64,000 nucleotides of DNA, from contig NZ_CP132336.1 of the NCBI RefSeq assembly GCF_030758315.1, positions 1,302,001-1,366,000 on the forward strand. Reading direction: 5' to 3'. Source of the stretch: Pararhizobium sp. IMCC3301 (GTDB taxonomy: Bacteria > Pseudomonadota > Alphaproteobacteria > Rhizobiales > GCA-2746425). Shown one piece after another: positions 26,432 to 30,990 of the stretch. The notes beneath the pieces were generated by a model, which worked only from the letters and a program-made list of their open reading frames with translations, was not told the DNA's origin and did not search any database. The position numbers and the translations under genes are program-made. Numbering within the stretch: position 1 is the first letter of the stretch; every line of letters starts with the position of its first letter.

Positions 26432-27584
26432 GACGATCGGCATGGGCTGGCGACGCCCGGATGGCCGCATCGGGCTACGCAACCATGTGATTGCATTGTC
26501 GACCATCGCCCTCACCGACCGCGTGACCGCACTGGCCGCAGCCCGGGTGCCTGGCGTTCTGCCGGTTACTCCCGGGTTTCAGCGTGGCGTGCGCGGCTGC
26601 GATGCAACGCTTCAGGCTGACATGATTGAGGCAATCATCGCCCATCCCAATGTCGGTGCCGCCCTTGTTGTAACCCACGACCGCGCGGCCGCTGCACACT
26701 TGCACGCGGCCTGTGCAGAATTGCAAAAGCCTGTGGTTGTTCTTTCGCTCATGGCACAGCGCGGCATGCAGGCGGCGCAGGATGTCATGGTCTTGCATCT
26801 GCAAGATCTGATGACTGCCATGGCTGGAAGTCCCAAAACAGATCTGCAGCTGTCCGATCTGACGGTCGCCCTGGAATGCGGCGGCTCCGACGCAACTTCC
26901 GCACTTTGTGCCAATCCGTCAATCGGCCGTTTCGTGGATCAGCTGATTGCCGCAGGCGGCACTGCGATCGTATCGGAAACCGCCGAATTCCTGGGCGGTG
27001 AGGATGTCATCCGCGCGCAGTCTCACAGCCCGGCGATTGCGCAGGCCATTCTGGCACATCTGAGCGCCGAAGATGCAATGATGCACGCCGATGGAACTGA
27101 CTATCGCGGCGTCAATCCAACGCAGGAAAACATTGAAGCCGGACTGAGCACGCTGACAGAAAAAACCATGGGGGCAATTTGCAAAATCGGCACCAGCAAA
27201 TTTTCCGGGGCATTACAATTCGGCGAAAAGCCGGGTGAGCCCGGGCTTTACTTCATGCACACACCATTTTTCAGCCCGACATCGCTGACCGGAATGGTGC
27301 TGGCAGGCGCGCAAATCACTCTTTTTGCTGTCGGAGTTTTCAATCCGTCCGGCCTGCCCCTGGCGCCGACAGTGAAAATCTGTGGCAACCCGAAGACCCT
27401 GTCAGACTGGTCTGACAGTATAGATCTGGATGTGTCAGGGATTATTTCGGGCCAGTCTGACTATGGTGACACTGCCCAGGCCATCCTTGATCTGGTGCGG
27501 CAGATCTCAGAGGGCAGGCTGACCTGCGCGGAACAATGGCAGGAGGGCCAGATCACAGTTCCGGTTTCGCAACTGCCTCTTTAG
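26412..27584 (+). CDS. UxaA-type dehydratase, large subunit
   Basis: This 390-residue protein matches the main domain of altronate/galactarate dehydratase: MGWRRPDGRIGLRNHV at the N-terminus, a LECGGSDATSALCANPSIG segment near residue 160 and SETAEFLGGED near 190. These enzymes use an iron centre to dehydrate hexonates or hexarates. I chose ATG 26412; it overlaps the small subunit by 20 nt. Last gene of the operon. With an enolase-type dehydratase also present, the pathway may contain two successive dehydrations. Confidence 0.82.
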   Translation: MSTTSHETIGMGWRRPDGRIGLRNHVIALSTIALTDRVTALAAARVPGVLPVTPGFQRGVRGCDATLQADMIEAIIAHPNVGAALVVTHDRAAAAHLHAACAELQKPVVVLSLMAQRGMQAAQDVMVLHLQDLMTAMAGSPKTDLQLSDLTVALECGGSDATSALCANPSIGRFVDQLIAAGGTAIVSETAEFLGGEDVIRAQSHSPAIAQAILAHLSAEDAMMHADGTDYRGVNPTQENIEAGLSTLTEKTMGAICKIGTSKFSGALQFGEKPGEPGLYFMHTPFFSPTSLTGMVLAGAQITLFAVGVFNPSGLPLAPTVKICGNPKTLSDWSDSIDLDVSGIISGQSDYGDTAQAILDLVRQISEGRLTCAEQWQEGQITVPVSQLPL

Positions 27585-27656: not shown

Positions 27657-28172
27657 TTAACTGCCTTCATCCGGCAAGAGAAACGCGACCAGATCGGACA
27701 GATCTTCGTCCGACATTAGCCAGCGTGGCATGCGCGAACCAATTTCGCTGCCGTCCGGCCTTACCCCTTTGGTGATTGCTTCAGCCAAACTTTCGCGGGT
27801 GTATGAGGAATGGTCGTGACCATCACTATCGCCATGCTCACCCGTCAAGGCGGCTTCGGTAATCGCCGGAGCCACTGTCCAGTAAGTCGGGCGCAATCGA
27901 CCGCCCTGACGGTCAACTCCATGACAGGCAGCGCAGGAGCCACCACCCATCATCTGCATATGGCCCCCGCCTGTGGCGCGAATCGCCTCCCCGTTTGAAT
28001 TCATGCCGGTGAAGTACAATTGTTCGCCGTTGCTTCGGAATTGCGTCGGCCAATCGCCTCGGTCGGTCCTCGGTGTCAGCGAGAACTCGAGGCTCAACAG
28101 TGCGACGAGGCCCAAAGCGACGCTTCCGGCAACAATCAGGTTGCGGCGCTTTCGACCGCTCTCACTGATCAT
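27657..28172 (-). CDS. membrane-anchored monohaem cytochrome c
   Basis: This 171-residue protein has an N-terminal anchor helix (about 11-29), then a Met/His/Gly-rich patch GGGHMQMMGGG immediately before the haem motif CAACH (about residue 80). A His/Asp cluster GEHGDSDGHDHS (about 112-123) and a likely Met axial ligand in SRMPRWLM follow. It overlaps the DUF302 gene by 4 nt and is the last gene of the minus-strand cluster that starts at 30612. The Met- and His-rich patches suggest contact with copper as well as haem, which is inference. Confidence 0.82.
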   Translation of the reverse strand: MISESGRKRRNLIVAGSVALGLVALLSLEFSLTPRTDRGDWPTQFRSNGEQLYFTGMNSNGEAIRATGGGHMQMMGGGSCAACHGVDRQGGRLRPTYWTVAPAITEAALTGEHGDSDGHDHSSYTRESLAEAITKGVRPDGSEIGSRMPRWLMSDEDLSDLVAFLLPDEGS

Positions 28173-28555
28173 ATGGCTTCTACGGCCTTGCGCAGCAGAT
28201 CACGAACTTCGCCCGCAACACGTTTCAGTTCCGCATTGTCAATCGCCATCATCGAGGCTTGCGGATCAATAGCGGAAACTTCTACGCCAGCGTCAATCTC
28301 GCGCAGAATGACATTGCACGGCAACATTGCGCCTACTTTCGGCTCCAGGCCAATAGCCTCCCATGCCATCTTTGGATTACAGGCGCCCAGGATGAGATAT
28401 CCCGGCATGTCCTTGTCGATTTTCTTCTTCATCGTTGCCTTGACGTCGATCTCCGTCAGCACGCCAAAGCCGGCGTCGGCCAAAGCACTGCGGGTCCGGG
28501 CCTCGATGGCGTCCAATGTGGCATCTTTGAAAGTTCGGTCAATTGAGTAACTCAT
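28169..28555 (-). CDS. DUF302 domain protein
   Basis: This 128-residue protein begins MSYSIDRTFKDAT and contains the DUF302 pattern: GFGVLTEIDVKATMKKK, LGACNPKMAWEAI and LPCNVILRE. Two cysteines (in GACNP and LPCNV) are conserved-looking. No signal peptide is visible, so it is probably cytoplasmic. The family has no firmly established reaction; its genes often accompany copper, arsenic or sulfur redox genes. The start follows AAGGATATC, and 24 nt separate it from the upstream membrane peptide. Confidence 0.85.
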   Translation of the reverse strand: MSYSIDRTFKDATLDAIEARTRSALADAGFGVLTEIDVKATMKKKIDKDMPGYLILGACNPKMAWEAIGLEPKVGAMLPCNVILREIDAGVEVSAIDPQASMMAIDNAELKRVAGEVRDLLRKAVEAI

Positions 28556-28579
28556 CGGCAGATATCCTTCTTTATTGCG

Positions 28580-28693
28580 TTATTTCATCAGGGTTTTGAA
28601 CAACACAGCGATTCCTAAAATAACCAGCACGAGGATCAGGATCATCCAGATCCCTCCAAATCCCATTCCAAATCCCATATCAAATCCGTTCAT
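28580..28693 (-). CDS. 37-residue Met/Gly/Phe-rich membrane peptide
   Basis: A short frame begins at ATG 28693, with AAAGGAG upstream at good distance (an ATG at 28699 would be too close). The N-terminus MNGFDMGFGMGFGG is Met-rich and is followed by one strong membrane helix (WMILILVLVILGIAVLF) and KTLMK. It lies between two cytochrome genes on the same strand and 24 nt before the DUF302 gene. Similar tiny Met-rich single-helix proteins occur next to copper-handling and DUF302 genes. The function is unknown. Confidence 0.65.
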   Translation of the reverse strand: MNGFDMGFGMGFGGIWMILILVLVILGIAVLFKTLMK

Positions 28694-28893
28694 ATTCATT
28701 CTCCTTTACAGTTCTCACAAGCACGTGACTGTGGGTCCGAAGCGCAAATTCAATGCCGGATTCGATATATCCTACGGCAAGACTGTGGCGTTTGCCTGAC
28801 ATTGTGACCATACCTGAAACCAAAACCCCGCAACACTGAGATCGCGGAGCTTTGCAAGTCGGCACTCAACCGGAACAGCCAACCCGCCGCCCG

Positions 28894-29397
28894 TCAACCG
28901 TGATCATCATCCTCACCTTCTTCATGATGCTCTTCCTCACTTTCGTGATGCATCATGCCCTTGATCGCATCTGGGACATCCGCGTCAGAGAATTTCGCTT
29001 GCTCATCAGCATCATGAACGAAAGCGATAATAGCGGCCAGTTCCTCGCCATCCAGCTCGATCTGCCCGCCCATTTCATCCTCCTGCAGGGCCACCATGGC
29101 TCCGGCCCCGCGCCACATACGTGCGGCAAAATCGAACGGGTTCATCGGCATATCCATAAGCTCGGCATCCAGGCTCGGTGCGTCCTCGCCACCCACACCG
29201 TTGATCGCATGACAGACAACACAGCCCTTGGATGCGAACAGCTGTCGTCCTTTGGCAGCATCCATCTCCGGCATCATCAGACCTTCGGCCATCATCGCGT
29301 CGTCCGCACCCATCCCTGAACTGTGCTGCTGTGCGAGTACCGGCACTGCCACTGTAACAAAGAGCGCAGAGATCATCAGTTTCATCGGTATTTTCAT
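28894..29397 (-). CDS. periplasmic monohaem cytochrome c with acidic/His metal-binding tail
   Basis: This 167-residue protein has a signal peptide (residues 1-22, VLAQQH), a Met-rich region (about 29-46), the haem motif CVVCH near residue 59 and a C-terminal tail of about 18 residues made almost only of His, Glu and Asp (MMHHESEEEHHEEGEDDDHG). The tail is unusual for a small cytochrome and is a plausible divalent-metal (copper, nickel or zinc) binding sequence. The start follows AGGAGA. It is the second gene of the cluster. Confidence 0.85.
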   Translation of the reverse strand: MKIPMKLMISALFVTVAVPVLAQQHSSGMGADDAMMAEGLMMPEMDAAKGRQLFASKGCVVCHAINGVGGEDAPSLDAELMDMPMNPFDFAARMWRGAGAMVALQEDEMGGQIELDGEELAAIIAFVHDADEQAKFSDADVPDAIKGMMHHESEEEHHEEGEDDDHG

Positions 29398-29490
29398 CGG
29401 GGTCTCCTAATGTGTATTCGGTTTGGATTTGGAGTGCCTTGCGTCAAATCTCCACCCGCTACGATGGTCGCCGCACTGCTTCGCTTGCTG

Positions 29491-29526
29491 CATATCGCCA
29501 CTCACCATATGGGTTGTGGTGATATG
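29491..29526. other. imperfect hairpin between propeller and cytochrome genes
   Basis: CATATC-g-CCAC-tc-ACC (from 29491) pairs with GGT-t-GTGG-t-GATATG (to 29526) around the loop ATATG. It sits in the 150-nt gap between the beta-propeller stop and the next cytochrome start on the minus strand. It could stabilise or partly terminate the transcript; no T-run follows. Confidence 0.5.
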
Positions 29527-29547
29527 CAGGGTTATGGCGGTCCGGCT

Positions 29548-30612
29548 TCAGTTCATGACAACCATCTGATGGCCTACACTTTCAACGGCAAATTCGCCAA
29601 TTACACTCAGGTCTGATGCATCGAGAATCCAGACTTTCGGTTCCGCCCGCGACGAGACGAACAGACGTCCTGTTCCAGGCACATTGGTGAGGTGATAGGG
29701 CTCCGGAGCAAGCGAGACAGTTGAAATGGAACTCCCCGCAAGGTCAATCACCACAACCTTGTCTTCGCCGCGTCCAGCTACAATCAGCTGAGTGCGGTCT
29801 TCTGTCAGCTCGATCCCGTGGATCTCGCCGCCAATCTCGAAACTGCGGCTCGTTTCACCACTTTCCAGCGCCAGTTCAAGCACCTGCCCGTCATCGGAAT
29901 CCGCGACGTAAAGCGTTCCCGACACGGAATCGAGAACCAGATGCTCCGGTGCCAGGCCGGCGAACAGATTACGACGCACGATTTGCCGTTCCAGATCAAC
30001 CTCGCTGACGGTGCCATTACCTGCGTTCGAGACATAAACTATGCCCGGATCTGTGCCGAATACAGCATAGTTGGGCATTGAACCGGTCGCAACCCACCCG
30101 GTCATCGCCATCGTCTTCAGATCGATCACAGAAATTCCATCACCCGATGGATGCGTCGCCACTGCGAACCGGCCATCCGGAGACACCGCAGTGTGGTGCA
30201 CGGCACCTGGCACCTCGATGCGGCGCAGAATTTCGCCGGTTTCGGCATCGAGAATGCTGAGCAGGCTCAAGCCAGCCCCTGCCGGTCCCATTGGCTTGGC
30301 AGCCGGAGCATGATGCCCGGCATGTTCATCCGCCGTCACGCCTTCGGGTAGCGATGTTTCGGCAATATCTTCACGATCAACCTCCGCATAGCTGCCCGCG
30401 ACCAGCACAGGCACGCCCGGCGCGCCGGCAAGACCGTGTACCGCTTCCAATCCCTCAATCCGGTTGATCATGTCACCCGTGGTGGCATTCACCATCAGGA
30501 TGGAATTCGCGCTTCCTTCCGGCACAAAAACCGTTTGTGCAAAAGCCACACTGCCCGTCAGCACAAGGGCCGAAGCCAGTGACAGGCTCTTCGTAAAACC
30601 GATGATACCCAT
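29548..30612 (-). CDS. periplasmic YncE/YVTN-type beta-propeller protein
   Basis: This 354-residue protein has a signal peptide ending near residue 25 (VAFAQT). About six or seven repeats of the form VSPDGRFAVATHPSGDGISVIDLKT, IVYVSNAGNGTVSEVDL and TLYVADSDDGQVLEL are typical of the YVTN/YncE beta-propeller class. A His-rich insert (DEHAGHHAPAAKP) lies near residue 97. The start ATG follows GAGGAG. It is the first gene after the FNR-like box at 30770-30783. It may be a scaffold or metal/cofactor-binding protein; no enzymatic motif is visible. Confidence 0.85.
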   Translation of the reverse strand: MGIIGFTKSLSLASALVLTGSVAFAQTVFVPEGSANSILMVNATTGDMINRIEGLEAVHGLAGAPGVPVLVAGSYAEVDREDIAETSLPEGVTADEHAGHHAPAAKPMGPAGAGLSLLSILDAETGEILRRIEVPGAVHHTAVSPDGRFAVATHPSGDGISVIDLKTMAMTGWVATGSMPNYAVFGTDPGIVYVSNAGNGTVSEVDLERQIVRRNLFAGLAPEHLVLDSVSGTLYVADSDDGQVLELALESGETSRSFEIGGEIHGIELTEDRTQLIVAGRGEDKVVVIDLAGSSISTVSLAPEPYHLTNVPGTGRLFVSSRAEPKVWILDASDLSVIGEFAVESVGHQMVVMN

Positions 30613-30990
30613 AATATCTCCTCATTCGCTCGACCGTCAGGCGGTCAGGAAGATGTCCGCAATCAGATTCTGGCCGGGATATCGGCCGGATTATTGCTTT
30701 GCGCGCCGGCTGCTCTGCGGCCGGAACCTTACGACGATGTGCACCCTAGCGGCAAACGCCAAGGGGGCATTGACCCAGATCAAGCCGCAAAACTTTACGC
30801 CGATCAGACCGGTTACGGCCGTTACTCAGACGGGTTACACCGCTCGCGAGAGTTCGGCACCTTCCAGGACAGGACGCGGTGAGTGGGATGGAGAGAGCCG
30901 TCTGGCTTGTTGGATTGCAGGTTCACCCTGTGCGGATGCGCTGTTCAATGCAAACGTCACTGCAATGCGGCTCCGCCTGCGCCCTATGCA
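30613..30990. other. 378-nt intergenic region upstream of the propeller-cytochrome cluster
   Basis: This gap lies between the propeller gene and the 3' end of the RimK-like gene. I find no convincing coding sequence; open frames here lack a ribosome binding site and family resemblance. The only clear element is the FNR/FixK-type palindrome described separately. Confidence 0.6.
30770..30783 (-). promoter_or_regulatory. FNR/FixK-type binding site
   Basis: On the minus strand the sequence is TTGAT-CTGG-GTCAA, one base away from the symmetric anaerobox TTGAT-N4-ATCAA. A TAGGGT hexamer starts 22 nt after the box, at the spacing expected of a class II FNR promoter (box centred at about -41.5). It would drive the minus-strand cluster starting at 30612, predicting low-oxygen or nitric-oxide control. 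The only other gene reachable is on the same strand upstream, so the assignment is unambiguous in direction. Confidence 0.7.

Follow-up and report, generated by a model that had tools for sequence, protein, structure and literature searches.

A predicted low-oxygen copper-handling gene cluster of Pararhizobium sp. IMCC3301 and its beta-propeller with a nitrous-oxide-reductase-like order of histidines

In the present study we analysed a cluster of five minus-strand genes located within a 64,000-nucleotide stretch of Pararhizobium sp. IMCC3301 DNA (contig NZ_CP132336.1, positions 1,302,001 to 1,366,000; hereafter the window, whose numbering is used throughout). The genome (G000) is a single contig of 4.58 Mb. 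The cluster derives, as an offshoot associated with low oxygen, from a known genomic kind, the mobile copper-resistance island of alphaproteobacteria. With a probability of roughly 0.55 it encodes a periplasmic redox module for copper handling that is induced at low oxygen and descends from such islands. What is new is not the presence of the five genes, but (i) the ring of histidines in its beta-propeller protein, which follows the order seen in a nitrous-oxide reductase (NosZ), and (ii) the existence of a lineage of these propellers preceded by an FNR-type box. The features of the cluster are as follows (all on the minus strand).

29548..30612: gene 1, secreted seven-bladed beta-propeller of the YncE/lactonase type, 354 aa
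30310..30324: HxxHH (HAGHH) in the blade-1 insert of the propeller, residues 97-101; its three histidines are kept in 41/41 homologues
30193..30198: ring doublet H139-H140 of the propeller (AVHHTAVSPDG), kept in 41/41 homologues and aligned with H140-H141 of the clade III NosZ L171
28894..29397: gene 2, secreted cytochrome c of the class I type, Met-rich in its N-terminal part and ending in a His/acidic tail
28897..28950: the 18-residue His/acidic tail of gene 2, HHESEEEHHEEGEDDDHG
28580..28699: gene 3, Met/Gly-rich membrane peptide with a single helix, 39 aa from the first ATG or 37 from the second
28169..28555: gene 4, DUF302 protein (PF03625, E 2e-23)
27657..28172: gene 5, membrane-anchored cytochrome c with GGGHMQMMGGG before CAACH
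27921..27971: HMQMM motif of gene 5, preceding the haem site
30770..30783: FNR/FixK-type box TTGATCTGGGTCAA, 157 nt upstream of the first ATG of the propeller gene
30743..30749: CTAGGGT, a tentative -10 element, which follows the box at a distance of about 20 nt

The histidine ring of the propeller

The propeller was compared with 41 homologues (38 first matches reduced to 27 distinct sequences, plus 14 others), which reach down to approximately 34% identity. Nine histidines are present in all of them (H59, H97, H100, H101, H139, H140, H224, H265 and H348), and three further residues are nearly invariant (H307 and Y182 in 40/41 each, H154 in 39/41). Among these residues is a ring of seven histidines and one tyrosine, one site per blade, composed of H59, H139-H140, Y182, H224, H265, H307 and H348, i.e. 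in the order H, HH, Y, H, H, H, H. From blade 2 onwards its sites are spaced by 42, 42, 41, 42 and 41 residues, and each falls at the start of a strand. In 25 PQQ-ABC propellers used as controls a single histidine was conserved. The preliminary description of this DNA had noticed the HAGHH insert, but had missed the ring.

As described in the available text of PMC11573801, the CuZ site of NosZ is built of seven histidines; each blade but one contributes one of them, and one blade contributes two consecutive residues. The ligand numbers printed there are spaced by 1, 48, 142, 55, 51 and 61 residues. The conserved histidines of a clade I NosZ (L159) have nearly the same spacing (1, 48, 143, 55, 51 and 61) and were therefore identified as the CuZ ligands. 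The ring order of clade I is HH, H, none, H, H, H, H, while a clade III enzyme (L-NosZ; L171, 786 bits; residues H86, H140-H141, Y185, H226, H269, H329 and H387) has exactly the order found in the window propeller.

In MAFFT alignments of 12 diverse propellers with two clade III enzymes (L171 and L172), run under four settings, residues H140, H141, Y185, H269, H329 and H387 of L171 coincided with H139, H140, Y182, H265, H307 and H348 of the propeller in 12/12 sequences under every setting. Five of the seven ring histidines and the tyrosine thus align exactly. H226 of L171 fell on E223, one residue before H224, and H86 missed H59, the blade-1 histidine not being alignable. No such match was seen with 12 control PQQ-ABC propellers, except for a mixed Q/H column at H329 (5 His of 12); this control comprised 12 of the 25 sequences and one setting, and MAFFT may be pulled by His-His matches. 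Profile comparison (hhalign) gave 96% for the propeller against L-NosZ, but in several registers, as repeats do, and 16% against clade I NosZ; because of these multiple registers, we relied on the multiple alignment with its control.

Judged from its sequence, the propeller is not a NosZ. It scored 34.3 bits with the L-NosZ model NF052460 (cut-off 700) and ends after its last blade with no match to a cupredoxin, i.e. it has no CuA domain; it also differs from NosZ by the additional HxxHH insert. No NosZ above the cut-off was found in G000. The NCBIfam cut-offs for YncE (36 of 400 bits) and PQQ_ABC (78 of 287 bits) were likewise missed. The protein shares its fold family with Escherichia coli-type YncE and PQQ-ABC propellers, although the ring is absent from the PQQ-ABC controls. 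Full-text searches of an open-access library revealed no paper that assigns a function to these "YncE family" propellers. The ring geometry and copper binding are presumed from sequence features, and the metal would be copper by the evidence of gene neighbours and precedent.

Distribution and copper-island context

A search with the propeller protein detected 28 loci in named genomes (one of them distant, 24% identical) and 28 plasmid records, spread between genera. In an order-wide search, 16/397 genomes (G000 included) encoded the propeller at E <= 1e-50. Copper genes were present within 10 kb of the propeller at 36/45 loci: a Cu-type or heavy-metal P-type ATPase at 33 and another copper gene at 14. 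This count omits the near-identical loci L053-L057, L059-L063 and L072 as well as the distant L074, and includes some short contigs. The named loci with a copper context are those of Thioclava, Hoeflea, Ruegeria pomeroyi, Nitratireductor, Roseovarius, Ruegeria B32, Roseibium, Alisedimentitalea, Pseudohalocynthiibacter and the gammaproteobacterium Halomonas; a heavy-metal ATPase accompanies the propeller in Indioceanicola, and a copper gene was absent from the part seen of the Martelella stretch. The orthologue of Ruegeria pomeroyi DSS-3 is adjacent to a Cu-ATPase gene.

The copper islands of alphaproteobacterial plasmids (Thioclava pLX01, the Ruegeria pomeroyi megaplasmid, Nitratireductor and Roseovarius) carry an orthologous propeller, 42-64% identical to that of the window, and share with the window set the tailed cytochrome, the DUF302 protein and the Met-rich peptide. 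The island copies are placed among genes for a Cu-ATPase, a multicopper oxidase, DsbA/DsbD, a Rieske protein and Ccm proteins. In contrast, the window set is short, chromosomal and FNR-boxed, includes gene 5, and has no ATPase, oxidase or CueR gene beside it. Cytochromes c and cytochrome maturation genes repeatedly adjoin the propeller. At twelve loci of the Rhodobacteraceae type (L052-L057, L059-L063 and L072) the propellers show 0-2 differences in 345 residues, which points to recent spread. A viral origin was considered and rejected: 69 stretches matched a pattern, and none encodes a propeller relative in viral contigs.

The FNR box and its conservation

The pattern TTGAYNNNNRTCAA, which we take to be the FNR/FixK box consensus, has one exact match in the 64 kb, at 30783-30770. 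At least one such match occurred in 24/100 shuffled windows, so the box on its own proves little. It becomes credible through (i) genome-wide enrichment (28 exact sites in G000, compared with 8 for a reversed control pattern), (ii) the presence of two of the 28 sites at cbb3 oxidase genes (COX1, FixG, HemN-like and Crp/Fnr-family proteins were confirmed by Pfam), and (iii) conservation in related loci.

Only exact boxes were counted, and the window is the discovery case. In a scan that omitted near-identical copies, loci fetched later and island copies of the cytochrome, 6/40 propeller genes, that of the window among them, had a box in the 800 nt upstream (0.31 expected), as did 7/19 tailed-cytochrome genes in the 400 nt upstream (0.07 expected). 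A wider scan without the window, which also accepted boxes within the first 150 nt of the longest reading frame and in which 10 or 11 rows are near-identical copies of L052, gave 5/55 propellers and 7/37 tailed-cytochrome homologues. In L076, L078 and L156 more than 800 nt separate box and propeller.

The boxed propellers of the window, L027, L048, L049 and L051 form one clade (support 0.99), the sixth being that of L151; on this tree, a single lineage, plus L151, came under box control. In the five loci of the clade the leader has diverged and the box is its clearest conserved block in the alignment. About 20 nt past it stands a CTAnTGT-like block, a spacing that is presumably that of a class II FNR promoter. 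The corresponding CTAGGGT of the window was missed by a consensus promoter scan. By its conservation and apparently activating position, the box places the cluster in a predicted FNR/FnrL regulon. A DUF302 protein of Bradyrhizobium (blr5777) is listed beside a CcoG-type protein in a table of genes raised at low oxygen, as given in the available text of PMC6515984.

Two side observations concern these boxes. Tailed-cytochrome homologues with an exact box close upstream and no copper neighbours occur at L030, L033, L034, L036, L040, L041 and L042; by sequence they are an FNR-linked cytochrome family of alphaproteobacteria, for which a function was not found. Moreover, an open reading frame (ORF) of approximately 117-119 aa with no Pfam match directly precedes the propeller in L027 (5585-5944), L048 (9475-9825) and L052 (9416-9769). 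It stands between box and propeller in L027 and L048, and no counterpart was seen in the window.

Gene order and companion genes

All five ORFs were confirmed in the window, and the motifs and the box, 157 nt before the first gene, were located where the preliminary description had placed them. Its statement that most of the genes are separated by short gaps or overlap applies to two of the junctions (24 nt and a 4-nt overlap, the third and fourth from gene 1), but not to the other two (150 and 194 nt). Genes were mapped by homology and with a codon score of our own making in place of a gene finder. Pfam recognised DUF302 (E 2e-23), two Cytochrom_C domains and a YNCE-type propeller. As read by eye, the propeller and the tailed cytochrome begin with signal peptides and the gene 5 cytochrome with a membrane anchor, and no export signal was seen in the DUF302 protein. 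Rfam gave zero matches above the gathering score between positions 27000 and 31500; predicted sigma-70 promoters (3, compared with 2.2 in shuffles) and terminators (5, compared with 3.0) were discarded as being at chance level.

The five genes recur in the same order at L027, in a second genome of the genus (G003), with products 74, 72, 68, 86 and 64% identical, so that the gene order, whose absence from all other genomes would by the preliminary description have refuted its proposal, is kept in another species. L027 has in addition a binding-protein-like gene after the propeller and a small gene with no Pfam match before it. The other three genomes of the genus have no propeller at 1e-50.

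Outside G000 and G003 the set is modular. The propeller is directly followed by the tailed cytochrome on the Nitratireductor plasmid and in L146, the Met-rich peptide directly precedes DUF302 in six of the seven loci in which it was detected (the window, L027, L047, L079, L080 and L083), and the tailed cytochrome adjoins the anchored one in L030. Several island copies of the cytochrome have the His/acidic tail in common, whereas the majority of copies outside islands (L037-L046) lack it. The DUF302 protein is related to solved but uncharacterised structures (1j3m and 1q9u).

Gene 5 is rare in the sequences searched: it gave one weak plasmid match, and no match at 1e-10 in the other genomes of a 385-genome class sample. 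In its aligned close homologues MxMM directly precedes CxxCH in 5/5 and HMxMM in 4/5. Gene 5 was detected at E <= 1e-40 in five relatives, four of which also have the propeller, compared with 16/397 genomes of the order. In genome G006 (L028) a gene 5 homologue lies beside genes for two Sulf_transp proteins, a rhodanese and a further cytochrome c, with an ArsR-type gene recognised by eye; a role of this cytochrome type in sulfur metabolism is possible there.

Proposed function

At low oxygen copper is mostly Cu(I), which is then most toxic, and the O2-dependent multicopper oxidases stop. In the scheme that we propose, an activator of the FNR family would turn on the genes when oxygen falls. 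The secreted propeller would bind copper at its NosZ-like seven-His ring in the central channel, with the HxxHH loop acting as a lid or as an entry site near the entrance. The secreted and membrane-bound cytochromes c may carry electrons between the propeller copper and the respiratory chain or, alternatively, may hand copper to the propeller. The His/acidic tail, the HMxMM segment and the Met-rich peptide would gather copper, the last supplying Cu(I) sites at the membrane, and the DUF302 protein would work in the cytoplasm. The ring might serve for copper storage, for O2-free copper oxidation or for catalysis on a small molecule. Electron flow, induction and the purpose of the module are presumed; copper handling was ranked first because of the island context.

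Several observations weigh against this proposal. No copper gene lies within 10 kb of the propeller in either the window or L027, and the neighbours that mark a copper-resistance island (Cu-ATPase, multicopper oxidase or CueR) are absent from both; seven more of the 45 loci (L058, L070, L081, L146, L151, L154 and L158) are in the same position. No box precedes the propeller at 50/56 loci (window included), the boxed tailed cytochromes are seven non-island copies, with none of the island copies boxed, and since five of the six boxed propellers belong to one clade, the Poisson value (6 against 0.31) overstates their independence. G000 lacks NosL, and the general scores of the propeller are nearer to the PQQ-ABC, YncE and hydrazine synthase beta models than to NosZ. 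Each of the 16 sequences in alignment A2 matches L-NosZ below the cut-off, but each also matches those three models, with better best E-values; in a PDB profile ranking an S-layer protein, YncE and hydrazine synthase stand ahead of NosZ (8e-5). The likeness to NosZ therefore lies in the site and not in the overall sequence.

The propeller might instead be a carrier or sponge for copper (or zinc), with no redox function, in which the ring and the HxxHH loop do no more than hold and pass on the metal, with the cytochromes serving some other purpose. We consider this rather unlikely. The precedent is AztD, a periplasmic propeller with His-rich tracts that hands over zinc (PMC6689063, available text); 8/16 homologues match its model weakly (best 2.5e-7), and the propeller often stands beside CopA without gene 5. 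However, AztD has eight blades, belongs to a Zur-controlled operon with an ABC importer and, as its authors state in the available text, has sites that are not those of NosZ (PMC6689063), whereas the ring of the window propeller follows the NosZ layout and cytochromes c and their maturation genes recur beside it. No ABC metal importer, such as AztABC, was present among the neighbouring genes seen at propeller loci.

The agreement in ring order with clade III NosZ, the two cytochromes of the operon and the FNR box could also indicate a cytochrome c-linked copper enzyme, with a CuZ-like cluster on the ring, that reduces or oxidises N2O, a thiol, thiocyanate or Cu(I) at low oxygen. SELENBP1, a copper-dependent thiol oxidase with seven blades that needs copper at the HH and HxxH motifs of its cavity (PMC10362175, available text), offers a parallel; this methanethiol oxidase family is absent from the family matches of the window propeller, and its own ligand set (Asp, Glu) differs. 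Such an enzyme is distinctly unlikely, given the missing CuA domain and NosL, scores far under the NosZ cut-offs, the shift of H224 by one residue from the NosZ column, the unaligned H59, and an island context that suggests copper tolerance rather than respiration. Also unlikely is a stand-alone CuZ-type protein, in which the propeller would carry a multinuclear copper cluster on its seven-His, NosZ-order ring, without CuA, and exchange electrons directly with the two cytochromes c under FNR control. If true, this would constitute a second, minimal CuZ architecture, located mostly on mobile copper islands and assembled without NosL.

A sulfur redox module, the other function suggested by the preliminary description, is very improbable. 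Besides the neighbours of the gene 5 homologue in G006, it could draw on the DUF302 matches in Mameliella and Antarctobacter (H49, H62), which overlap a rhodanese annotation; yet G006 has no propeller match, and the propeller, the tailed cytochrome and the Met-rich peptide recur with copper genes. Least credible of all is that ordinary, unrelated neighbours happen to lie behind a chance FNR-like box. About a quarter of the shuffled windows contain such a box, and both YVTN propellers and DUF302 proteins occur widely (307 plasmid records for DUF302), but the order and sequences kept in L027, the conservation of the box where its flanks diverge and the invariant ring already largely contradict this reading.

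The earlier interpretation was thus right in direction. Its copper/redox assignment agrees with the recurrence of the propeller, the tailed cytochrome, the Met-rich peptide and DUF302 in copper islands, and its low-oxygen assignment with the conservation of the box in one clade. The view that the cluster as a whole is an undescribed system is not upheld, because most of the set belongs to a widespread mobile copper island.

The low-oxygen copper-handling proposal gives these "YncE family" propellers a testable role, as a periplasmic copper site with a NosZ-order ring, and the FNR box ties copper handling to low oxygen. If the ring holds a cluster, CuZ-type chemistry would not be confined to NosZ and might have a link with the detoxification of copper.

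Other propellers, and copper genes elsewhere in the genome

The PDB profile search also matched thiocyanate dehydrogenase (0.066), which we take to be a copper propeller. In the Pseudomonas mnxG manganese-oxidase operon, according to the available text of PMC11409713, the multicopper oxidase is accompanied by SCO1 proteins, a YVTN propeller and a fusion of cytochrome c with a binding protein. A similar layout was observed in Pseudomonas sagittaria (L074), with a large protein, the distant propeller (24% identical to that of the window), SCO1 and a cytochrome c-binding-protein fusion; the large protein has no Pfam match, so its reading as MnxG rests on layout. The fused cytochrome distinguishes L074 from the window, and the binding-protein-like gene of L027 is unrelated to this fusion by BLAST.

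G000 encodes four Cu-ATPases above the cut-off, away from the cluster. At approximately 3.51 Mb (L115:6617-11653) a multicopper oxidase, a cytochrome c, a MerR-type regulator and a Cu-ATPase stand in a row and constitute the copper operon of the genome itself. A second propeller, apparently a remnant, was detected at approximately 3.307 Mb (L114:7298-7780); it comprises the C-terminal half (51% identical, residues 217-352) and lies about 4 kb from a Cu-ATPase. Finally, the stretch at 1.742-1.782 Mb (L111-L112) has a low-oxygen appearance, with three FNR boxes in L111 and, in L112, a Cu-ATPase accompanied by the small proteins SHOCT, YHS, DUF5676 and DUF2933.

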